Shown here one piece after another: positions 1 to 19,415 of a stretch of 64,000 bases of DNA. The stretch covers positions 1,363,235 through 1,427,234 of the forward strand of contig BLLK01000058.1 of assembly GCA_021927905.1 (NCBI GenBank), written 5' to 3'. Under the pieces are notes generated by a model. It was given only the letters and a program-made list of their open reading frames with translations, was not told the origin of the DNA and searched no databases. The position numbers and the translations under genes are program-made. Source of the DNA: Chaetoceros tenuissimus. Lineage: Eukaryota; Bacillariophyta; Thalassiosirophyceae; Chaetocerotales; Chaetocerotaceae. Position 1 is the stretch's first letter; every line of letters starts with the position of its first letter.

Positions 1-700
1 AGGTAGGATACTTGGATTCTGTGAAGGCAACATTGATATCGACGGTACAATACTAGGTAGACTTGAAGGCTTCTGTGAAGAAGTTGGACTACTCGACGGA
101 ACCATACTCGGATTACTGCTTGATGATGGTCTGCTAGAGCCCTGCAAGCTCGGCTCTTGCGATGTGCTTGGCAATGCTGATGGTAGACTTGAAGGCTCTG
201 CAGACTGTGATGGCAATGTAGACGGAATCATCGAAGGTACAGATGATTGTGAAGGCAGAGAGCTCGGCAAAGCTGAAGGTTTTGATGACTCCGAAGGTAG
301 GATACTTGGATTCTGTGAAGGCAACATTGATGTCGACGGTACAATACTAGGTAGACTTGAAGGCTTCTGTGAAGAAGTTGGACTACTCGACGGAACCATA
401 CTCGGATTACTGCTTGATGATGGTCTGCTAGAGCCCTGCAAGCTCGGCTCTTGCGATGTGCTTGGCAATGCTGATGGTAGACTTGAAGGCTCTGCAGACT
501 GTGATGGCAATGTAGACGGAATCATCGAAGGTACAGATGATTGTGAAGGCAGAGAGCTCGGCAAAGCTGAAGGTTTTGACGACTCCGAAGGTAGGATACT
601 TGGATTCTGTGAAGGCAACATTGATGTCGACGGTACAATACTAGGTAGACTCGAAGGCATCTGTGAAGAAGTTGGACTACTCGACGGAACCATACTTGGA
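1..700 (-). repeat. 294-nt coding repeat (98-aa PS-rich unit)
   Basis: The block beginning gtgcttggcaatgctgatgg occurs at 164 and again at 458, 294 nt apart and almost identical. Part of a further copy reaches the left edge. The minus-strand frame reads PS-rich text such as LPSQSSVPSMIPSTLPSQ. The period is 98 codons, so copy-number change keeps the frame. This repeat lies downstream of the six-Cys domain in the same exon, and the gene continues beyond base 1. Confidence 0.88.
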
Positions 701-3700
701 TACCTTGATTGATGTATGGAGCCTTCACAAGCACAACAAGCTTCAGAAATATCTTTATCTCTATATTTTTTTCCTGTTGCAATAGCGATCGAACAATAAT
801 TTGGCACTTGTTTCAGATTTTCTGCGACTTGGGCACAGTTTTGGTCGAATGGATCGAGCCAATCAGGCTCATCAATACACGTTGGGGCTTCACCTATACT
901 CGGAGAGGAGCTAAAACGAGCTGATGGATTTAACGACGTCTTGTCGCTGCCTAACGAAGGGAATTCACTTGGAACAAATGTAGGACTTAAACTCGATCGA
1001 GATGACGGATTTAACGACGGCTTGTCACTGCTATGAGACGGGAATTCACTTGGAAGAGATGAAGGTACCGTTGAAGGAGCTTCACTACTATCAGATGGAG
1101 TCTCGGATGCACCAGATGACGGACTTAACGACGGCTTGTCACTGCTATGAGACGGAGACTCTGAAGGTAGAGATGATGGTCCAGAGGAAGGATTATCACT
1201 ACTCATCGACGGAGACTCTGAAGGTAGAGATGAAGAACTCAAAGAAGGATTATCACTACTCATCGACGGAGACTCTGAAGGTAGAGGTGAAGGTCCAGAG
1301 GATGGATTGTCACTACTATGAGACGGAGACTCTGAAGGTAGAGGTGAAGGTCCAGAGGAAGGATTGTCACTGCTCATCGACGGAGACTCTGAAGGTAGAG
1401 ATGAAGAACTCAAAGAAGGATTATCACTAATCATCGACGGAGACTCTGAAGGTAGAGATAAAGGACTCAAAGAAGGATTATCACTACTCATCGACGGAAA
1501 CTCTGAAGGTAGAGATGAAGGTCCAGAGGATGGCTTGTCACTACTATGAGACGGAGACTCTGAAGGTAGAGGTGAAGGTCCAGAGGAAGGATTGTCACTG
1601 CTCATCGACGGAGACTCTGAAGGTAGAGATGAAGGAATCAAAGAAGGATTATCACTACTCATCGAAGGAGACTCTGAAGGTAGAGGTGAAGGTCCAGAGG
1701 ATGGCTTGTCACAACTCATCGACGGAAACTCTGAAGGTAGAGATGAAGGCTGTCAATAGAGAAAGGAAATGAATGAAACATGTTAGCATCTTCGTCAATA
1801 CAAAACGAGCAATCTTGATCTCTTCCTATCATGCTGCAAGAGTCAAATCCTACATGATCTTGATAATACGTACTATTGGAGTAGGCTGCTTCGTTGGTGC
1901 AGGCGTCGGCTGTCAATAGAGAAAGGAAATGAATGAAACATGTTAGCATTTTCCTCAAAAGTGGATGTCAATACAAAACGAGCAATCTTGATCTCTTCCT
2001 ATCATGCTGCAAGAGTCAAATCCTACATGATCTTGATAATACGTACTATTGGAGTCGGCTCGTTAGTTGGTGCAGGCGTCGGCTGTCAATAGAGAAAGGA
2101 AATGAATGAAACATGTTAGCATCTTCCTCAAAAGTGGATGTCAATACAAAACGAGCAATCTTGATCTCTTCCTATCATGCTGCAAGAGTCAAATCCTACA
2201 AGATCTTGATAATACGTACTATTGGAGTCGGCTCGTTAGTTGGTGCAGGCGTCGGCTGTCAATAGAGAAAGGAAATGAATGAAACATGTTAGCATCTTCC
2301 TCAAAAGTGGATGTCAATACAAAACGAGCAATCTTGATCTCTTCCTATCATGCTGCAAGAGTCAAATCCTACAAGATCTTGATAATACGTACTATTGGAG
2401 TCGGCTCGTTAGTTGGTGCAGGCGTCGGCTGTCAATAGAGAAAGGAAATGAATGAAACATGTTAGCATTTTCCTCAAAAGTGGATGTCAATACAAAACGA
2501 GCAATCTTGATCTCTTCCTATCATGCTGCAAGAGTCAAATCCTACATGATCTTGATAATACGTACTATTGGAGTCGGCTCGTTAGTTGGTGCAGGCGTCG
2601 GCTGTCAATAGAGAAAGGAAATGAATGAAACATGTTAGCATCTTCCTCAAAAGTCAATACAAAACGAGCAATCTTGATCTCTTCCTATCATGCTGCAAGA
2701 GTCAAATCCTACATGATCTTGATAATACGTACTATTGGAGTCGGCTCGTTAGTTGGTGCAGGCGTCGGCTGTCAATAGAGAAAGGAAATGAATGAAACAT
2801 GTTAGCATTTTCCTCAAAAGTGGATGTCAATACAAAACGAGCAATCTTGATCTCTTCCTATCATGCTGCAAGAGTCAAATCCTACATGATCTTGATAATA
2901 CGTACTATTGGAGTAGGCTGCTTCGTTGGTGCAGGCGTCGGCTGTCAATAGAGAAAGGAAATGAATGAAACATGTTAGCATTTTCCTCAAAAGTGGATGT
3001 CAATACAAAACGAGCAATCTTGATCTCTTCCTATCATGCTGCAAGAGTCAAATCCTACATGATCTTGATAATACGTACTATTGGAGTAGGCTGCTTCGTT
3101 GGTGCAGGCGTCGGCTGTCAATAGAGAAAGGAAATTTTCCTCAAAAGTGGATGTCAATACAAAACGAGCAATCTTTGATCTCTTCCTATCATGCTGCAAG
3201 AGTCAAATCCTACATGATCTTCCTTGATACGTACCACTATTGAGTCGGTTTCGTTAGCTGGTGCAGGCGTCAATAGAGAAAGGAAATGAATGAAACATGT
3301 TAGCATTTTCTTCAATACAAAACGAGCAATCTTGATCTCTTCCTATCATGCTGCAAGAGTCAAATCCTACAAGGTCATGATAATACGTACTATTGGAGTC
3401 GGCTCGTTAGTTGGTGCAGGCGTCGGCTGTCAATAGAGAAAGGAAATGAATGAAACATGTTAGCATTTTCCTCAAAAGTGGATGTCAATACAAAACGAGC
3501 AATCTTGATCTCTTCCTATCATGCTGCAAGAGTCAAATCCTACATGATCTTGATAATACGTACTATTGGAGTAGGCTGCTTCGTTGGTGCAGGCGTCGGC
3601 TGTCAATAGAGAAAGGAAATGAATGAAACATGTTAGCATCTTCGTCAATACAAAACGAGCAATCTTGATCTCTTCCTATCATGCTGCAAGAGTCAAATCC

Positions 3701-5752
3701 TACATGATCTTGATAATACGTACTATTGGAGTAGGCTGCTTCGTGGATTCAGGCGTCGGCTGTCAATAGAGAAAGGAAATGAATGAAACATGTTAGCATC
3801 TTCGTCAATACAAAACGAGCAATCTTGATCTCTTCCTATCATGCTGCAAGAGTCAAATCCTACAAGGTCATGATAATACGTACTATTGGAGTCGGCTCGT
3901 TAGTTGGTGCAGGCGTCGGCTGTCAATAGAGAAAGGAAATGAATGAAACATGTTAGCATTTTCCTCAAAAGTGGATGTCAATACAAAACGAGCAATCTTG
4001 ATCTCTTCCTATCATGCTGCAAGAGTCAAATCCTACATGATCTTGATAATACGTACTATTGGAGTAGGCTGCTTCGTTGGTGCAGGCGTCGGCTGTCAAT
4101 AAAGAAAGGAAATGAATGAAACATGTTAGCATCTTCCTCAATACAAAACGAGCAATCTTGATCTCTTCCTATCATGCTGCAAGAGTCAAATCTTACATGA
4201 TCTTGATAATACGTACTATTGGAGTAGGCTGCTTCGTTGGTGCAGGCGTCGGCTGTCAATAGAGAAAGGAAATGAATGAAACATGTTAGCATTTTCCTCA
4301 AAAGTGGATGTCAATACAAAACGAGCAATCTTGATCTCTTCCTATCATGCTGCAAGAGTCAAATCCTACATGATCTTGATAATACGTACTATTGGAGTAG
4401 GCTGCTTCGTTGGTGCAGGCGTCGGCTGTCAATAGAGAAAGGAAATGAATGAAACATGTTAGCATCTTCGTCAATACAAAACGAGCAATCTTGATCTCTT
4501 CCTATCATGCTGCAAGAGTCAAATCCTACATGATCTTGATAATACGTACTATTGGAGTCGGCTCGTTAGTTGGTGCAGGCGTCGGCTGTCAATAGAGAAA
4601 GGAAATGAATGAAACATGTTAGCATTTTCCTCAAAAGTGGATGTCAATACAAAACGAGCAATCTTGATCTCTTCCTATCATGCTGCAAGAGTCAAATCCT
4701 ACATGATCTTGATAATACGTACTATTGGAGTCGGCTCGTTAGTTGGTGCAGGCGTCGGCTGTCAATAGAGAAAGGAAATGAATGAAACATGTTAGCATCT
4801 TCGTCAATACAAAACGAGCAATCTTGATCTCTTCCTATCATGCTGCAAGAGTCAAATCCTACATGATCTTGATAAAACTTACAGCTTTGATTGGCTGCTT
4901 TGTAGTTGGTCCAGGCGTCGGTTGTGAGTTCAACTTTCTTGTTATTTCTTGTTTTTTGTGATGAATGTAATATTCTTTTATTTTTGTCTCATCAATACAA
5001 TATCTGTCTTTTGTTGTACCCTTCTCAATATTACAATATTTAGATGCTTTTCCTTGATTCATACATTTGTAACCCGTCGGACAGGATCCATCTGTAAAAC
5101 AAGTAATGGTGCAATATTTTGAAGTTTTCATGTTGCTGTTTCTTATGCAAAAGTTTGACTGCAACTGTGTTGCTCCAGAACATTCCGTTATACCTGCAAA
5201 TATCTTATTTCGACGAAAGCAGACTAGATCATCTTTGCAATCTCCATCAGTCATGCATTTTCCTTCACAAAGGCCTAACGCCAGTTTTCCTTCATTAATA
5301 CAGATATTAAGGTTGTGTTGATGAGATGAATGTTGATCACATTTAGTCCCAACAAGAGACTGCGAATCCTTTATTGATATGCACTTCAGATCATTTTCAC
5401 AATTACTATCATCAATGCAGCCTAATTCACACTCAGAGAAAGTTATATTGTTTTCTTCAATTTGCAATGCACTTTGGTCATTACCAAAATCAGAGCTTTC
5501 CCGAGGTATACAATAAGAGTTTTGTATTCTATGTATCTGTCCACTACAAGGTGAAATAGGTGAATGATTTGGCTGTTTGTGATAACACCTTAATCCGGTT
5601 GAACAATCGTCATCTCTATTACAATTTCCTTCACAAATTGATAACCGTTCCCGTGCATGAACGATGGCTATTTGTAGACTTATTATATAGCAAAAGAAGA
5701 TATAACGAAATGTGCACTTCTCGTTTCTTTGTTTGTTGGTCTGCATTTTCAT
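1..5752 (-). CDS. Large secreted Cys-rich / Pro-Thr-linker / PS-repeat protein, multi-exon, cut by left edge
   Basis: Exon 1 is 5752-4883 (870 nt, 290 codons, phase 0). It has an ATG start, a hydrophobic signal segment near residues 15-32, then four Cys-rich units of the form CxGxC-DxDC-GLxCF-CSG-YC, ending in a Pro/Thr linker. It stops at a perfect GTAAGT donor (4882-4877). Eighteen 36-nt micro-exons follow between 4758 and 1874. The last exon starts at 1749 after the same TTGACAG acceptor and stays open to base 1 (583 codons). It encodes PS repeats with a six-Cys domain at about 902-719, running from Cys-Ile-Asp-Glu-Pro-Asp-Trp to Cys-Cys-Ala-Cys, which resembles ShK-like domains. The spliced product is at least 1077 aa if the 17 intact micro-exons are used. 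A secreted or cell-surface role is inferred. I do not recognise a named orthologue. The open + strand frames here are antisense shadows with poor composition. Confidence 0.75.
1154..1749 (-). repeat. 57-nt coding minisatellite (19-aa PS repeat, about 11 copies)
   Basis: The motif ggagactctgaagg (or its variant with ggaaactctg) recurs at 1154, 1211, 1268, 1325, 1382, 1439, 1496, 1553, 1610, 1667 and 1724, an exact 57-nt spacing. On the minus strand this is a 19-residue unit such as PSSGPSPLPSESPSHSSDN. The period is a multiple of three and the minus frame has no stop. The copies alternate between at least two subtypes. It lies at the start of the last exon of the large secreted protein. Confidence 0.9.
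1750..4882 (-). repeat. Tandem array of 36-nt micro-exons with their introns (18 units, 160-173 bp each)
   Basis: Micro-exons in transcript order are 4723-4758, 4550-4585, 4390-4425, 4217-4252, 4057-4092, 3884-3919, 3724-3759, 3564-3599, 3391-3426, a broken copy near 3235-3270, 3079-3114, 2906-2941, 2733-2768, 2566-2601, 2393-2428, 2220-2255, 2047-2082 and 1874-1909. Each intact one encodes PTPAPTKQPTPI or PTPAPTNEPTPI; the copy at 3724 reads PTPESTKQPTPI. Every intact unit has the donor GTACGT, a CTAAC branch-point-like motif, a pyrimidine-rich tract and the acceptor TTGACAG. Introns are 124 nt, or 137 nt when a 13-nt insertion is present, with one of 131 nt. All joints are phase 0. An unspliced donor reads into a TAG eight codons later. 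Intron copies are as alike as exon copies, so the unit spread by recent tandem duplication or gene conversion. Confidence 0.85.
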
Positions 5753-6742: not shown

Positions 6743-7615
6743 TTATTGATCATTGTCCACCTCTTTGCCTTGTGGACCTGAATAACCTCTAGGATTTTCA
6801 TCACATCGTGTATGAAAATTATTCCAAGGTCTAGTACATGTTCCAATATCTTTCATGTGAGATGTAAAACCATTCATTCCATCGTCTATACTATGATGAT
6901 CTATACTCCACTTATCGTCACTGGATGCTCGTGTGATTTTATAAATGGAACAAGGTGCTGCAGGATTAATTTCTTCCAACTCACAACCTGTTGCAGATTT
7001 GACAAGCCCAATACACAATGCTGCATGACTGACTAGAATCAATACCTGATTCTTTTCCTCTTCACAAGGATAAGCTTTTCCAATTTGATCCATTGCTTCA
7101 TCGCATCTATCAAAGAAAGTTTCTTTACTTTCAGGTAAAGTAGGTACAAAGAGCGTTTCATATGATGAATCTATACGAGGAAAGTAACATTCTCTTTCTT
7201 CCATGGATGGTAGAGACTCATGTAGTCCCTGACCCCATAAATCTAATTCAAAAATGGAATATTCAGGTTTAATTTTGATAGTGTCATCTTTTTCTCCTTG
7301 CGTGTTTTTCATTTGCCCTAGCAGTTCATTGGATGTTTGTATGGTTCGTAGAAAAGGACTGGAAAGTAATGTTATATTCTCTGCAGCCACATTTTCCTTT
7401 GTGAATAGTTTGTCAAAGTATCTTCCTACTTGTCGAGCTTGTTCATGGCCAAGTTGAGAAAGAGACGGATCACCTTTCCGTTTCGTGTTTGCAGATTGTT
7501 TCCATTCAGGATGTGTATAGTCCCATCTATCACCATGTCGTACTATGTAAATGCTTTGAACGCGACTGGACACAGAAGTCGAAGGAAGATCGCTGCTATT
7601 GGACTGAGGAGGCAT
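6743..7615 (-). CDS. Histidine phosphatase superfamily protein (phosphoglycerate mutase-like)
   Basis: A single-exon protein of 290 aa from an ATG. It carries the clade's hallmarks: RHG at residues 26-28 with the catalytic His27, the SSPFLRTIQT segment (85-94) with its conserved Arg, an FELDLW acidic segment near 122-127, and SHAA (196-199) with the second catalytic His. The WDYTHPEW stretch after RHG resembles eukaryotic UBASH3/ecdysteroid-phosphate-phosphatase-like members more than glycolytic mutases. It probably removes phosphate from a small molecule or protein, substrate unknown. No targeting peptide is evident; the first 20 residues are Ser/Pro-rich. It is divergent with the zinc-finger gene on the + strand. 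Confidence 0.88.
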   Translation of the reverse strand: MPPQSNSSDLPSTSVSSRVQSIYIVRHGDRWDYTHPEWKQSANTKRKGDPSLSQLGHEQARQVGRYFDKLFTKENVAAENITLLSSPFLRTIQTSNELLGQMKNTQGEKDDTIKIKPEYSIFELDLWGQGLHESLPSMEERECYFPRIDSSYETLFVPTLPESKETFFDRCDEAMDQIGKAYPCEEEKNQVLILVSHAALCIGLVKSATGCELEEINPAAPCSIYKITRASSDDKWSIDHHSIDDGMNGFTSHMKDIGTCTRPWNNFHTRCDENPRGYSGPQGKEVDNDQ

Positions 7616-7979
7616 ATTGGGAATAGATGTAGTGGTCAGAGAGAAGAATCAGTGGAGTGTTGAATAATGAAATGCAAATAAATGTGTCATCAGTTGAGAA
7701 ATGAGAAAGAGAAAGAATGAGGCACAGACAAGCGAGCGGTCAATACGTGGCCGAGAGCCAATCAAAATCTCTTGAATCTCAAAAGAAATAGAAAGAAAGA
7801 GGAAAAACAGAGAAAGGTATAATTATGAGTCAATCCCAGATATTCAGTCTTGTTGGACAATTTCGCTGGCAAATTTTCATTTTCATGAAACAACATATTT
7901 CAACTTGTTTGTCGATTGTGTATCTTTGTATCTTCAATATTACATACATCTATCGGAAACGATAGCTCTACTTATCAGC
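7616..7979. promoter_or_regulatory. Divergent promoter region, histidine phosphatase / zinc-finger gene
   Basis: A 364-bp AT-rich spacer between two ATGs facing away from each other. No convincing TATA box or other site could be assigned. The open frame upstream of 7980 starts only at a TTG (7905). Confidence 0.4.
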
Positions 7980-10376
7980 ATGCCATACTGTTCGCAATGC
8001 AATGTTAGCTGTCCAAGTGACTATCAGATGCAACAGCATTTGAAAGGGCGGAAGCATAGGGAAAGAATGAACGGTGGAAGTGGCGAAGTCAAAGGGATAT
8101 GTTTTGATTTCAAGAAACATGGATATTGCTCAAGGGGGGCTTCTTGTACCTACAAACATATTGAAAGTTCCAAAAGTTCGTATTCCTATGGATCAAGTAA
8201 TGGACAGTCATCGTTCAAAGTAGGAACGAGTCTCAATGCTGGAGGGATCTGTTTTGACTTTAAAAAGAAGGGATATTGTATGTTTGGATCGAGGTGTAAC
8301 TACAAACATGTTGGTGCCCCAAGTACCTATGATACTTCTTTTGGAAAGATACCAATAATAAATACACGAGGAGGCCGTGTTCCTGCTGGATATTGCTTTC
8401 TTTGGTGGACGAAAGGGACTTGTTCCAAAGGTGGTTCATGTACTTACAAACATCATATGCCTGAGGATCCTTTCGAAGACTCCTATCAAACAGAGTCTGC
8501 ATCGTTTCTCTCTCCAACTTCTACGAAATTCGGCTCATTTGCATCTGGAAATATCATTACTCCAAAGTCGAGACTGAAAAGACCTATTGAAACTGAAACA
8601 GGGGCTAGTACTACTACTATATCTGCAGAGTTTTTAGTTGTGAAAAATGGACCAGTCGAGAAACAGGTAAGGACTGAAGAAATGACGGAGCAGAAGCCAG
8701 AATCAAGTAAAGTTCAGATAAAGGAAGAAAAACAACCAATTGAAGAACAAAAAGATGAGGAGTTAAGCTCAAATAAAGATAAAACAGAGGACGAGGAAGC
8801 AAACTCAAGTGAGGAACAGAAAGAGGAAGAGCCAAGCAAAAGCGAAGAACAGAGAGCGGAAGTTCCAAAGTCAACTTCAGGACCAAAATTAGCACCAATA
8901 TTTTGCAGACCTGTCAAGAAGCAAAGTAACAATACTGTGCAGAAACAAAATACTAGTAAACCTTCCAAGAAGGGTGATACGAAATCTTCAAAATTAGCGC
9001 CAATATTCTGCAAACCTGCGAAACAAAGTGGTAAATCTACCAAGAAAACGGAAAGAAAACCTTCACGCTTTGCTGAAAAATACAGAAACTTATTTTATCG
9101 CAAGAAAGATGTCAACCTTTATATTAAAGATGGTCTAGTGGTTTGGGAATTTGCATACAATCGAAATGTCATCGAGGCTGTGAAATTGTACATCAAAGGT
9201 AGAGCATGGAACCCTAGTCTTGGTGTAAAAGGCTGTTGGACAAATCCTATTGAAAGCTTACCTGATGCTATTGAGCTATATGAACATCTCGGTAGAGTGC
9301 CGTCTGATGAATTGAAGAAACGTGCAGAAGAAGTCAAGAGTAAATTTGGAGGAGCTTCACCTTCTGACACAATCACACTAACAGTTGAAATTAATGTCGA
9401 CGAGCTCAAGGGTTCATCAGGAAAGACCACCGCCGACGATCAGACTTCGTTTGGATCAGTTTCCGTAAAGTTTTTGTATGATGCCTCTATTGTGGATGCT
9501 TTGAAGGAATTAGCTCCTTCACAAAGAAAATATGACCCAGATACTAAAATTTGGACAGTTGAGTTGCTGGCGTTGAACAGTTTGGTTGAAAGCCTAGGTC
9601 GGAAAGATTTCAATGCTACTGGAAAACTGGTAGATTTGTCGTCGTTAGTGAAGGAAGTGAATCATTTAATCTTTGACTATCATGATACTATTGCACACGA
9701 AATTCCCTTGCAATCAAAAACTGAAGAGCAACCGGTAGAAGTTGACAATGATAGTATTGTCTTGGATTGTTCAGATGACGAAAAAGATTCAGAATCTTCC
9801 AAAATTAAGGAAGAACCGAGTTTCATCTCTAATTCTCAAGATAGTACGAATCCACCGTTGAGCGAAGAAGAGCGAATTGTCAAATTACAGGAGAGAATGA
9901 TGAACATAACTGACTTGGTATCCAAAGCTAGTGGCAACAGTAATCCACTTGAACTTCTATCATCAGATTGCGGAACCTCTAAAAAGCGCAAAACATCTGC
10001 ATCTTACAGCAACAATTGGTTGGCTCGTCTGGATGGAATTTCCACCATGGCAAGAAAAGCTTTTCGGAAGCCAATTCAGGCTATGCCTTCTGATTGCGAC
10101 TGTGGTAGACCCGAGATTAAGAGTCAAGGTGTCCATACTTGTCGCTACTTTGGTACATTTGAGTGCTTTTGTGGCAATACATGGACGAGTGCATATTGCT
10201 GGAAAGGAGAAAAGCAAGCATGTAGAAGTTGTGAAGCTGAGAGTTTTCCAAGTAAAAAGAGGCCACTTGAGCGTGGCTTGGGCAGTGGCGGTTCAGGCAT
10301 GCATGACTCTTCACGATGTGGTCGATGCAAATCTTTGGGGTATTCATGCAACGGTGTTTACTTTACACACTTTTAA
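7980..10376 (+). CDS. Multi-zinc-finger protein: U1-type C2H2, three CCCH, two HARP-like segments, C-terminal 3CxxC finger
   Basis: The start is set at the ATG at 7980 (798 aa), because the longer frame begins at TTG and the first finger starts at residue 4. A U1/matrin-type finger (C4-x2-C7-x12-H20-x5-H26) is followed by three CCCH fingers within about residues 38-170 (for example CFDFKKHGYC-SRGASC-TYKH). An acidic Glu/Lys-rich linker with a duplicated KLAPIFC motif comes next. Two regions then resemble the HARP/SMARCAL1 repeat, the second containing KYDPDTKIWTVELLALNSLV. The C-terminus has a Cys-rich 3CxxC-like finger with CDC, CFC, CRSC and CGRC pairs. An RNA- or DNA-binding role is likely. 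The combination looks lineage-specific. It ends 15 nt from the convergent ankyrin/TPR gene. Confidence 0.85.
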   Translation: MPYCSQCNVSCPSDYQMQQHLKGRKHRERMNGGSGEVKGICFDFKKHGYCSRGASCTYKHIESSKSSYSYGSSNGQSSFKVGTSLNAGGICFDFKKKGYCMFGSRCNYKHVGAPSTYDTSFGKIPIINTRGGRVPAGYCFLWWTKGTCSKGGSCTYKHHMPEDPFEDSYQTESASFLSPTSTKFGSFASGNIITPKSRLKRPIETETGASTTTISAEFLVVKNGPVEKQVRTEEMTEQKPESSKVQIKEEKQPIEEQKDEELSSNKDKTEDEEANSSEEQKEEEPSKSEEQRAEVPKSTSGPKLAPIFCRPVKKQSNNTVQKQNTSKPSKKGDTKSSKLAPIFCKPAKQSGKSTKKTERKPSRFAEKYRNLFYRKKDVNLYIKDGLVVWEFAYNRNVIEAVKLYIKGRAWNPSLGVKGCWTNPIESLPDAIELYEHLGRVPSDELKKRAEEVKSKFGGASPSDTITLTVEINVDELKGSSGKTTADDQTSFGSVSVKFLYDASIVDALKELAPSQRKYDPDTKIWTVELLALNSLVESLGRKDFNATGKLVDLSSLVKEVNHLIFDYHDTIAHEIPLQSKTEEQPVEVDNDSIVLDCSDDEKDSESSKIKEEPSFISNSQDSTNPPLSEEERIVKLQERMMNITDLVSKASGNSNPLELLSSDCGTSKKRKTSASYSNNWLARLDGISTMARKAFRKPIQAMPSDCDCGRPEIKSQGVHTCRYFGTFECFCGNTWTSAYCWKGEKQACRSCEAESFPSKKRPLERGLGSGGSGMHDSSRCGRCKSLGYSCNGVYFTHF

Positions 10377-17100: not shown

Positions 17101-19415
17101 TTGAGTATCTCACCTTCGGGGCAGGTGCATTTCAATTTTGTTGTACAAGTAGCTTCGTTGCCTGACGTATCAATCACTTTGAGAACAACGGAATTTTCAT
17201 TGGCAATATCAAATTCAAGCCCATCATTTTGAAGCAAAATAGATGCGACACCACAGTTATCTGAAGACCCATCATCGATCTCTATTGGAGTTAAAGAATG
17301 GATAGTTCGACAAACACCATTTGCGTATAAATTGAAGTCACTTTTGCAGTTTGCTTTAAGAAAAATTTTGTCTTGCACTGACAAGTTCGAGGTGCATGTT
17401 GCGGAATTGCCTGCATTGTCGGTGACATATAGATTCACGATATGTGTTCCAGAGGAGAGAGTTTTTGATTTAATCGTCTCTGATGAAGAGAATGACAAAC
17501 CAACTATTTCGGTGACAGCATCTGTAGATTCATCATTGATATCATCAACAGTCACTTCTACTTCGCACTTGTCGTAGTCCACAGCAGAATAAGTAGGATT
17601 AACTTTGCACCTAGCAGTAGGTTTTGAGCAGTAATCGTCTGTGAGGTTGAGATTTAATACAGATGTTCCGTCATATTCACAACTCTGGCAATAATCCTCG
17701 TTGCATTCTCCATGCGGTATCACTAGATTCTGTACTGCTGTATTATACTCAGCTGCTAAATAACAACCTTGATATGCACGACAGGTTTCTACTCCGATCG
17801 ACAGTGTTTTCAGAGTGTTAGATCTTCCTGCAAGTACATAGCATGACCTGAGATCCTGACATGACTTTTCCCCAACTTCTATTGACTGAACTATTTGCGA
17901 TACGAAGGCAATGGCATGACAAGAGTTCTCCGATAAACAGCTATCACCTCCAATCATGAGCGTCTTTAAACTCCGTGAATCGCGAGCGATCACATTGCAA
18001 GCCTCTTCGCCACTACATGAATTGCTCAAGATTCTCAGTAATTCCAATTCAGTGGATGGGCTTGCAATAAGTGTACAAGAATTTCGTGCCGAACATGCGC
18101 GTTCTCCGAGTGAGAGAGTCTTCAACATACTTGACTTCCATGCAATATTTGTACAAGAACTTTGGCTATGGCATGCCCCTGTTGAAAATGTCAGATTTTC
18201 CAACGCCGTGGAAGAATATGCAAGCCCAGTACACGCATAATCTCCATTACATGATTGCTGAGATATGGTAATAAGTGCTGATTCTGACTTGTGGGCTAGA
18301 TTTTTGCACGTATCAATTCCATTACATGAGTTCTTACATACAAGATATTTTGACGAGGTACTCCAACCTTTGCAGCTGTCTTGGTTTCCTCGACAACAAT
18401 TATTTTCAATTTTACCGCACCATTGGTCAAGTGTTGTAGTTTTATCGTAAGTATCCACATAGTTCTGAAAAGTTCTACATGTGGGTACGATACATCCATC
18501 ATCAGATGAGTTCGGAACTGTACCCAAAGGACATAAACAACCATCTCTCGAATCATTAATTTCTTTATAGGATGGACATTGACAAACTCCATCGATTTCA
18601 GGAATAGAACCTTTACATGAACAGCCATCTCCCGACTCATTGATTACTTTATCGGATGGACATTGGCAAACTCCATCAACTTCGGGAATGGAACCTTGAC
18701 AGTTACAGTTACCAGTAGTGATATCACACGCATCTGTAGCATCAGCCCAACCAGCTGCATCACATGCTTTCAAACCACAAACCACTTGGGCGCTGCAGAA
18801 TTCTAAATCAATGTCTACATTTTCGACACATAAATTCATAGCTCCATATTGACTCACAGATTTTATAGTAATATGATTTACATCTCCCTTCCGAAACAAA
18901 GTTGGATCAATATTACTTTGGAATTCATAATTTGAGCACATTGCATCTGGTGTATTACATCCACACCATCCCCAGTATCCCTCAAAAGATTTTGTACCAA
19001 TTTCCCTGTCATTAAAATACATGCTTAGAGTTCTTGGAATCGAGCTTGTGCAAAGGTTTGCACAAACATGCGTCGTTAAACCACAAACATATCTGTTCGA
19101 ATCATCTAAGAAGGTTCGAATGCCGTTATTCCAAGTTTGTGCCCAAGACCAGCATGAACATGTGTTGGTACCATCACCATAATCAATAGAAACATCTGCA
19201 ATGAACAACTTTCGTAAGGCTAGCTCTGAATCATTGCTCAGATTCTGAATAGCAACCCGATTGAAAGATGAATATTCATTTGAAAGTAACTCTTCATTTC
19301 GTGTCTTGTTGAAAACTTGTCTTTCCAACACAACATCACTTATTTGTGCGGCTGCGAACAGGGTGAAAGGTGCTAGGAAAAGAGCTTGGGCAAAGATTAT
19401 AAAGTTTTGCTTCAT
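14178..19415 (-). CDS. Giant secreted adhesin-like protein with internal duplication, HYR-, EGF- and ShK-like modules
   Basis: 1745 aa in one exon. The N-terminus MKQNFIIFAQALFLAPF is a signal peptide. Residues about 50-220 form a Cys/Trp-rich module, followed by repeated short CxC segments (IDGVCQCPS type). A block of roughly 580 aa then occurs twice, starting near residues 308 and 888. Each copy opens with PTCRxFxNY, carries many SCNG/SC...C repeats (likely a solenoid), and contains an HYR-like segment (LYVTDNAGNSATC; LFVKDVAGNSDEC). Near 1440-1530 lie two EGF-like units (CNRHGSCFVN; CNGHGDCDS). Three Cys-rich modules near 1570-1720 resemble ShK-like domains (CQQSCGFC, CPHSCAKC, CPVSCGF). 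The tail is hydrophobic (LFELVFGTVYFFL), possibly for membrane or GPI attachment. A cell-surface or adhesion role is inferred. Confidence 0.85.
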   Translation of the reverse strand: MKQNFIIFAQALFLAPFTLFAAAQISDVVLERQVFNKTRNEELLSNEYSSFNRVAIQNLSNDSELALRKLFIADVSIDYGDGTNTCSCWSWAQTWNNGIRTFLDDSNRYVCGLTTHVCANLCTSSIPRTLSMYFNDREIGTKSFEGYWGWCGCNTPDAMCSNYEFQSNIDPTLFRKGDVNHITIKSVSQYGAMNLCVENVDIDLEFCSAQVVCGLKACDAAGWADATDACDITTGNCNCQGSIPEVDGVCQCPSDKVINESGDGCSCKGSIPEIDGVCQCPSYKEINDSRDGCLCPLGTVPNSSDDGCIVPTCRTFQNYVDTYDKTTTLDQWCGKIENNCCRGNQDSCKGWSTSSKYLVCKNSCNGIDTCKNLAHKSESALITISQQSCNGDYACTGLAYSSTALENLTFSTGACHSQSSCTNIAWKSSMLKTLSLGERACSARNSCTLIASPSTELELLRILSNSCSGEEACNVIARDSRSLKTLMIGGDSCLSENSCHAIAFVSQIVQSIEVGEKSCQDLRSCYVLAGRSNTLKTLSIGVETCRAYQGCYLAAEYNTAVQNLVIPHGECNEDYCQSCEYDGTSVLNLNLTDDYCSKPTARCKVNPTYSAVDYDKCEVEVTVDDINDESTDAVTEIVGLSFSSSETIKSKTLSSGTHIVNLYVTDNAGNSATCTSNLSVQDKIFLKANCKSDFNLYANGVCRTIHSLTPIEIDDGSSDNCGVASILLQNDGLEFDIANENSVVLKVIDTSGNEATCTTKLKCTCPEGEILKGSVGSYTCEDPTSLCESCNLNNLGQCDESNGDCICVGGSEKLDGICQCPSDKVDDGSHNCEKPEILCLSKSCSAENLGRCDTSTGDCVCNGNIPEIDGTCKCPYDRMLNESGDDCIVPTCRDFRNYRDITDSRITLAGYCEDNFCCRGTSACDHWSSSATYRVCRNSCNGLHACRYLGHRSPENAEISIEQNSCSSDKYACSSIGWSSTILKKLTISSGSCEGTSACTAIAFNSKNLETLMVEGKSCLAERSCQVIAYDSNVKTITIKSNSCLSQYSCLNIAYGAIHLETLMIKSNSCLKKHSCQAITYSEGIATRSLEIGERSCQNLRSCYMLAARASNLQTLSIGSETCLKDYGCEMAAIDNTAVQNLVIPQGECSSVHCQSCTSKDSTGISLELTNKCCSYSKEPNMCEVTDPIARCMEDLSFTVDSDCNKILKVDEVDNKSSDDTGVIYKSFSSTKLLKSIVLNPGDHDVTLFVKDVAGNSDECSTIVKIRDKTLPTATCKGGFDLYANGVCRTIDSLTVMEIDAGSSVNCGVANMLLQNDGLEFDIAKENNSVGLEVTDASGNKATCTTSLQCNCPNGEVLRGSVGSYKCIVPPPPDPCQNNKCNRHGSCFVNSENKAECRCEDTFQQTPSKDGCECPPGLLLQQNINRCIDLCEGIDCNGHGDCDSNTGECKCHESFIATSPTSCECTEGYEVNESNKCAIIPDDDPDVNEPTICEDNESFEFTSQNDPSVLHNCTWISQNSNRLYSRQHDYCFADDTCKSPSDIGLECQQSCGFCDGSNTDSCLHINGDPESGCMDVESFMFPLTNSPDTFVHCAYITKHSNPENVEFRRKRYCSQTHIGAACPHSCAKCDPPYQDGPNYSFHLMNIDNEVNCKWLVENWKNKELRIKNYCLSDEDCTLASEVGDSCPVSCGFTRGMHWNRTCDAQSPSSFSSSSERNSNEAHPNVPISKSHLFELVFGTVYFFLQ

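Follow-up and report, generated by a model that had tools for sequence, protein, structure and literature searches.

Homogenised exon-intron arrays and serial micro-exons are already known from spidroins, Tetrahymena LRR genes and schistosomes. The Tetrahymena LRR genes, which number in the thousands, each contain 1–51 exons of exactly 90 bp, uniform in length and phase, with phase 2 introns; every such exon is repeated in tandem together with its intron (as a unit of about 347 bp in T. thermophila), an amplification ascribed to unequal crossing over, and the genes are linked to a retrotransposon (PMC6564038). In Argiope, the MaSp2 and flagelliform spidroin genes alternate repeat exons with homogenised repetitive introns, some genes alternating two intron types, and the MaSp2.2 intron lies inside a glycine codon in most paralogues (PMC9779670). 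Schistosome micro-exon genes encode secreted proteins with an N-terminal signal peptide through short exons that are mostly multiples of three, most of them 15 bp, separated by introns of 100 to almost 5000 bp, and tandemly repeated exons encoding 81-base repeats were reported earlier (Davis 1988, cited in PMC10526429). Dscam contains tandem exon arrays within one gene, the exons being mutually exclusive (PMC1397879).

The array described here lies in a window of 64,000 nucleotides (the whole stretch of DNA analysed) from the diatom Chaetoceros tenuissimus and is of the same general kind, consisting of head-to-tail exon-plus-intron units that are near-identical within the gene. As in the Tetrahymena LRR genes, the unit was amplified inside one gene of a protist, but in the diatom the introns are phase 0 and the exons are 36–60-nt Pro/Thr linkers rather than 90-bp LRR exons with phase 2 introns. 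Like the spidroins, the diatom genes place near-identical introns between the repeat exons of a probably extracellular protein, and one of them holds several intron types; unlike spider silk, with repeat units longer than 12 residues and a mostly intra-codon MaSp2.2 intron, they use phase 0 micro-exons. Serial short exons in multiples of three (here 36 nt, in 17 of 18 units) recall the schistosome genes, in which, however, most exons are 15 bp and introns reach almost 5000 bp, compared with 120–137 nt here. Exons within one schistosome micro-exon gene mostly differ from each other. The tandem arrangement within one gene is shared with Dscam, although all intact diatom exons could be joined. 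The diatom case is thus a smaller, phase 0 variant that recurs in linkers, and the literature searched, seen in extracts, holds no report of such exon-intron arrays in diatoms. The view that multi-exon repeats elsewhere have diverged introns, with which this locus had been contrasted, is not general, given the homogenised spidroin introns (PMC9779670) and the tandem exon-plus-intron units of Tetrahymena (PMC6564038).

The preliminary description had placed a tandem exon-plus-intron array at 1750–4882, which Tandem Repeats Finder (TRF) and minus-strand splice-motif counts both confirm, and its anatomy is established (Table 1). There are 18 head-to-tail units of 156–173 bp (173-bp period, 18.5 copies, 90% matches over 1794–4882), with one GTAAGT donor at 4882, 18 GTACGT donors, and 18 intact and one damaged TTGACAG acceptors. 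As first described, the GTAAGT donor, that of the first intron, closes the Cys-rich exon 1, and an acceptor of the array type opens the PS-repeat exon; all remaining introns begin with GTACGT. An acceptor, a 36-nt exon and a donor in each unit, with every joint phase 0 and stop-free, had also been claimed, and this stands for 17 of the 18 units and fails for the one at 3229–3276. The branch-like CTAAC motif, said to occur in every unit, is present in 16 of the 17 introns that precede an intact micro-exon and absent from the 120-nt intron that follows the damaged unit (3115–3234); the other introns measure 124, 131 or 137 nt. The intact micro-exons encode PTPAPTNEPTPI (n=9), PTPAPTKQPTPI (n=7) or PTPESTKQPTPI (n=1), and mean pairwise identity over 17 units is 0.931 for exons and 0.928 for introns. 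A 176-bp query spanning one unit gave at least 19 matches in the 41-Mb genome, with 19 of 19 inside the array.

Table 1. Features of the array and its flanking exons (window positions)
Feature	Position	Strand	Description
Exon 1	4883..5752	minus	Open frame; hydrophobic N-terminus, Cys-rich region with WAP match, tail PTPGPTTKQPIKA
Intron 1	4759..4882	minus	124 nt; donor GTAAGT, CTAAC, acceptor TTGACAG
Micro-exon array	1874..4758	minus	Near-identical 120–137-nt introns between exons; splice-motif parse and repeat period
Intact 36-nt exons 1–6	4723-4758, 4550-4585, 4390-4425, 4217-4252, 4057-4092, 3884-3919	minus	
Intact 36-nt exons 7–12	3724-3759, 3564-3599, 3391-3426, 3079-3114, 2906-2941, 2733-2768	minus	
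Intact 36-nt exons 13–17	2566-2601, 2393-2428, 2220-2255, 2047-2082, 1874-1909	minus	
Damaged unit	3229..3276	minus	Acceptor CAG missing, exon altered, next intron without CTAAC
Last intron	1750..1873	minus	124 nt; donor GTACGT, acceptor TTGACAG as elsewhere in the array
PS-repeat exon	1..1749	minus	Open frame from 1749; 57-bp and 294-bp units (TRF); extends beyond the window

The damaged unit has also lost the start of its exon. Upstream of its donor, the stretch examined contains three AG positions: one would leave 75 nt open and has no pyrimidine tract evident by eye, and the other two would yield a 23-nt exon with a stop and an exon of 2 nt. The unit is probably skipped, leaving a single 276-nt intron (3115–3390). 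Since it must be skipped or else spoil the message, the 18 micro-exons and about 19 splices originally proposed are corrected to an expected 17 and 18.

The N-terminus encoded by exon 1 looks like a signal peptide when the translation is read by eye. Against Pfam, exon 1 matches WAP (PF00095) at 22.6 bits, above the curated cut-off of 20.8, over just 19 of the 41 profile positions; no other family exceeds its cut-off, and there is no LRR match. The gene probably encodes a secreted protein that is rich in Cys and bears a Pro/Thr stalk whose length is apparently set by exon copy number. Downstream of the array, the PS exon is frameshifted in the assembly (stop at contig position 1361824), and the copy of the gene seen here may therefore be damaged or wrongly assembled.

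The micro-exon derives from the end of exon 1. The 39-nt tail PTPGPTTKQPIKA aligns to both exon types, and none of 2000 shuffles was as good for either, so that homology is established between the micro-exon and these final 39 nt; the repeat unit is thus the end of exon 1 plus intron 1. In the model that we favor, with a probability of about 0.83, the ancestral gene would have had a single phase 0 intron between the Cys-rich and PS-repeat exons. Tandem duplication of the last ~36 nt of exon 1 together with intron 1 would have put the intron acceptor directly ahead of the exon-end copy, so that a single event would have yielded a symmetric 36-nt exon already provided with an acceptor and a donor, and unequal exchange would then have multiplied and homogenised the unit to 18 copies. 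Because the introns are short and CTAAC precedes 16 of 17 intact micro-exons, each could be removed by intron definition, every unit adding 12 residues and the 17 intact exons 204; the damaged unit would be tolerable provided that it is skipped. Comparable amplification would have affected other Pro/Thr/Ser linker exons of the genome, separately at least in this gene and a paralogue. From the sequence, we infer that the exons are included by splicing, that the duplication took place as described, and that the protein is secreted and the linker serves as a stalk.

A version of this model, not exclusive with it, is that any donor may join any downstream acceptor, which would give a ladder of products whose stalks differ by 12 residues from one rung to the next. 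The intact donors and acceptors are near-identical and their boundaries all phase 0, so that gain, loss or skipping of intact units would preserve the frame, and the two copies of the terminal exon in one of the other array genes (C27) could yield two 3′ ends. For short introns, however, the nearest splice sites usually pair preferentially, and we regard variable inclusion as possible with the odds against it.

Alternatively, the array could be a non-coding minisatellite inside a single intron of 3.1 kb that runs from the donor at 4882 to the acceptor at 1750, in which case the 36-nt segments would be exon-like relics and mostly skipped. In favour of this, the outer donor differs from all the others and is matched by an intact outer acceptor, one unit has already broken down, and exon columns are no less variable than intron columns (7/36 versus 12/139), there being just three distinct exons (S 6, N 8) and no sign of purifying selection in this array. 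Against this, frame and both splice sites are kept in 17 of 18 exons, and 34 of the 139 intron columns contain alignment gaps whereas none of the 36 exon columns does, although gap columns come in blocks and are non-independent. The same architecture in other genes, with many distinct introns and pooled exon changes biased to synonymous, also argues against a single intron, which we consider improbable.

The recurrence of such arrays in other genes is established, with long arrays in three further genes. The first (C18) encodes a paralogue of exon 1 (51% over 116 aa), in which a Cys-rich exon is followed by 18 exons of 48 or 60 nt and then a PS/PT exon; its array has a 453-bp higher-order repeat holding several intron types, and the same kind of head before a different array indicates that amplification recurred. 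In the second (C33), a CBM_14 exon precedes 26 exons, all 60 nt long except for a single 108-nt one, and the third (C27:2054300-2057700) has 16 intact 36-nt exons. Nine shorter series of 2–5 units each were also parsed. The search for exon 1 paralogues found 15 other loci (L053–L067), of which L053, L054, L055 and L060 were translated and read. In IMG/VR, the exon-donor pattern of the CBM_14 gene had no matches, and its CBM_14 exon had three pattern matches, none confirmed.

A frame-blind parse of 14 stretches gave 99 units; exon length was a multiple of 3 in 97 and of 12 in 90, no exon contained a stop, and intron length was a multiple of 3 in 19. These frame statistics are partly ascertained, since four loci (L083–L086) had been selected by searching for Pro/Thr codons together with a donor, and since the acceptor rule required a Pro-like start and dropped the broken unit of the present array. 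A stop in the exon's frame occurs in 31 of 38 distinct introns, those of the present array included, and is absent from seven, two of which are multiples of 3 and could be read through (L079, 102 nt; L086, 93 nt). Genome-wide, the exon-end-plus-donor pattern had 106 matches, part of them with their places listed, compared with 2 when the pattern was reversed and 3 when the donor was permuted, and the acceptor-plus-exon pattern had 85 versus 0 for the control. When the linker exons of the other genes are pooled, they are shown to be under coding constraint, with differences biased to synonymous (omega ~0.35–0.50, 48–108-nt exons; pairs non-independent). Among 12 arrays or series with at least two units, exons were more alike than introns in seven and less alike in five (L079, L082, L084, L086 and L085 forward; global alignment of unequal exons). 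The proposal that a complete splicing module was amplified as a minisatellite is well supported, the other genes weighing more than the array alone.

An inflation of copy number by assembly artefact is very unlikely: the published assembly derives from Nanopore and Illumina reads (PMC8613185), and the PS exon is frameshifted, but the units differ by intron length, exon type and private changes, and the unit differs among the four long arrays. Least credible, and already disfavoured, are introner-type mobile elements inserted repeatedly in a Pro/Thr repeat, because, for all that the introns are near-identical within one gene, introners disperse one intron sequence over many unrelated sites, whereas the copies here are head-to-tail with the exon included, unit matches are confined to this array, and the tail of exon 1 with intron 1 is an evident source.

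Extending the duplicated-module model, we tentatively suggest, at somewhat less than even odds, a genome-wide class of expandable phase 0 Pro/Thr/Ser linker micro-exons amplified with their introns repeatedly, both independently in paralogues and across genes whose heads are unrelated, which would tune the stalk length of secreted proteins by exon copy number, possibly with combinatorial in-frame skipping that gives length ladders from one gene. Within one small genome, single linker introns, series of 2–5 units and arrays of 16–26 exons form a natural gradation in which the origin, spread and decay of tandem exon arrays can be studied. The array is also a test case for how a spliceosome copes with some 18 near-identical introns separated by exons of 36 nt. 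Should strains differ in copy number, the length of the protein would behave as a minisatellite trait expressed by way of splicing.

De novo detection of ordinary introns in the window and other genomic stretches, attempted twice, yielded 11 and 9 candidates that were weak and unusable. The strength of the donors was therefore assessed by comparison with a U1-like RNA (5′ ATACTTACCT; Rfam score 30.6 bits, below the cut-off of 69.5), to which 7 of the 8 intronic positions in the array donor can pair. The predicted joined micro-exon junction has no exact genomic copy that would mark a spliced retrocopy, and one match with two mismatches (C54). Another frame of the intron reads as a Cys-containing peptide (DACTNEAAYSNSTYYQDHVGFDSCSMIGRDQDCSFCID...); its 30 genome matches all lie in the array, several with stops, and we attribute it to chance. 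Finally, the PS repeat of this gene grows inside one exon, by 57-bp and 294-bp units, which allows a direct comparison of two modes of repeat growth within one gene.

The preliminary description proposed that a complete splicing module, a micro-exon with its own intron, had been amplified in tandem on the window's contig (C44). This mechanism is likely right and is broader than was visible from the window, since the same architecture recurs in three other long arrays of the Chaetoceros tenuissimus genome, on contigs C18, C33 and C27, and in nine shorter series of 2–5 units each that we parsed on C27, C32, C34, C46, C47 and C54. Over the 41,027,912 bases and 68 contigs covered by our pattern searches, the exon-end-plus-donor pattern was found 106 times; reversing it left 2 matches and permuting its donor left 3. 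The acceptor-plus-exon pattern was found 85 times versus 0. The C33 array was found through DNA similarity and the long C27 array through the pattern search.

Features of the C44 gene and of the other long arrays (positions in the window unless a contig is named)
Feature	Position	Strand	Description
Exon 1	4883-5752	minus	Cys-rich protein, hydrophobic start
Intron 1	donor GTAAGT at 4882	minus	124 nt
C44 array	1750-4882	minus	18 units after intron 1; donors GTACGT
Damaged unit	3229-3276	minus	acceptor CAG and part of exon lost
Last intron	ends at 1750, directly before PS-repeat exon	minus	124 nt
C18 array			18 exons, 48 or 60 nt long; PTSSPTSSPSASPTSA and related forms; several intron types
C33 array			26 exons after CBM_14 exon: 25 of 60 nt, one of 108
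C27 array	C27:2054300-2057700		short exon 1, then 16 intact 36-nt exons, one 48-nt, one 35-nt frameshifted

In the C44 gene, whose first exon has a WAP match just over the Pfam cut-off (22.6 bits versus 20.8), all 18 units had been described as 36-nt exons with phase-0, stop-free joints. This description holds once one unit is corrected: 17 micro-exons are exactly 36 nt, in phase 0 and stop-free, and the unit at 3229-3276 is without its acceptor. Intron length is 124, 131 or 137 nt, except for a 120-nt intron following the damaged unit; CTAAC is present in 16 of the 17 that precede an intact micro-exon and missing from the one following the damaged unit. Further tandem periods of 333 and 493 bp reported by TRF are as expected because the 160- and 173-bp units partly alternate. 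The window as a whole has 39.1% GC.

The source of the C44 unit appears to be visible in the gene itself. Alignment of the 39 nt closing exon 1, PTPGPTTKQPIKA, to each micro-exon type beats 2000 of 2000 shuffles, and several other array introns share the 124-nt length of intron 1. The simplest origin would be a single tandem duplication of the end of exon 1 together with intron 1, the duplicated unit then being multiplied by unequal exchange. NE and KQ, the two principal types of exon, are distinguished by four linked differences and are variously combined with the two main intron lengths, as expected if units have exchanged with one another.

Are the micro-exons coding? We parsed 14 stretches, the long C27 array left out, imposing no frame or stop conditions and keeping only rows with AG and a Pro-like codon 60–145 nt past the donor, a rule that excluded the broken C44 unit and exons starting with other codons. 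Exon length was a multiple of 3 in 97/99 cases (a multiple of 12 in 90/99) and intron length in 19/99, and none of the 99 exons contained a stop. The two exceptions are a 64-nt exon of C18, which arises from a GTGAGT within a longer open exon, and a 52-nt exon in the excised stretch L081, which looks frameshifted. Among 38 distinct introns (<80% alike to any other kept), 31 contain a stop when read in the frame of the exon; of the seven stop-free ones, two are multiples of 3, so that read-through is possible there. When exon differences are pooled, synonymous changes are over-represented: 48-nt exons gave 503 synonymous and 422 nonsynonymous differences over 88 non-independent pairs, a synonymous share of 0.54 versus 0.30 expected (omega ~0.35), and omega was 0.41–0.50 for other exon lengths, 60 nt up. 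The C44 exons alone comprise three variants, on which the synonymous test is powerless.

Some observations weigh against the coding reading of the C44 copy. Its exon columns are more variable (7/36) than its intron columns (12/139). Taken one by one, the arrays give a mixed result: exon similarity exceeds intron similarity in 7/12 and falls below it in 5/12. An exact copy of a joined micro-exon junction was looked for in the genome and not found. The PS exon loses its frame within what appears, by eye, to be a degenerate 294-bp unit and meets a stop at contig position 1361824, so that past the array this gene copy may have suffered damage or misassembly. The PS exon has also grown inside one exon, by 57- and 294-bp tandem units (window 1-701 and ~7840-10000 of the excised stretch L020; 57-bp units at 1151-1749).

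A C18 paralogue of exon 1 (51% over 116 aa) is followed, as at C44, by a phase-0 GTAAGT intron, and a long PS/PT exon comes after its array, which contains a 453-bp higher-order unit (2.1 copies, 99% matches). In five comparisons, no clear similarity was found between C44 introns and those of the C18, C33 and C27 arrays (identity 0.46–0.54); three slightly exceeded the best of 60 shuffles, by 0.01–0.03, an excess that shared splice signals could explain. From these alignments, the C44 and C18 arrays therefore appear to have been amplified separately. Between the C33 and C18 arrays the introns are related (identity up to 0.84), so that these two arrays have a cassette in common; the C33 head exon is a chitin-binding CBM_14 exon (39.9 bits versus a cut-off of 22.1), and in the C33 array the introns past the first have GTGAGT donors. 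The C27 protein would be mostly micro-exon coded. That array has one additional exon without its donor, and its terminal exon, with PTNSPTNSSA and a stop, exists in two copies with following sequence (2339-2520 and 3062-3240 of excised stretch L087), which could provide alternative 3' ends. Elsewhere on this contig, G000:C27:840250-841900 (L085) holds two adjoining short linker-exon series of related sequence on opposite strands. Upstream of the C18 paralogue, an apparent long inverted repeat, judged by eye (~2440-2590 and 3080-3240 of excised stretch L053), is possibly a small transposon.

Homogenised exon-intron arrays are already known. Homogenised repeated introns are published for spidroins (PMC9779670), tandem exon-intron units for LRR genes of a protist, Tetrahymena (PMC6564038), and secreted proteins built of micro-exons for schistosomes (PMC10526429). 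The Pro/Thr micro-exon arrays differ from these systems in their combination of 36–60-nt phase-0 Pro/Thr exons, more than one amplification in one small diatom genome, short beside long arrays and a visible source of the C44 unit. No report of diatom arrays of repeated micro-exons with introns was found in the parts of the literature covered by our search.

A putative U1-like RNA, assigned from its 5' end, ATACTTACCT, and a weak match (30.6 bits, under the cut-off of 69.5), has a complement agreeing with C44 donors at 7/8 intronic positions, both in the array and at exon 1, with one C18 form at 8/8, with C33 at 7/8 and with C27 at 6/8. In six representative introns, CTAAC lies 27–38 nt before the intron end. 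Beside the array gene, open frames at 6743-7648 (minus) and 7776-10376 (plus) resemble, by eye, a histidine phosphatase and a CCCH zinc-finger protein, and an 84-bp unit is present in two copies at 18530-18701.
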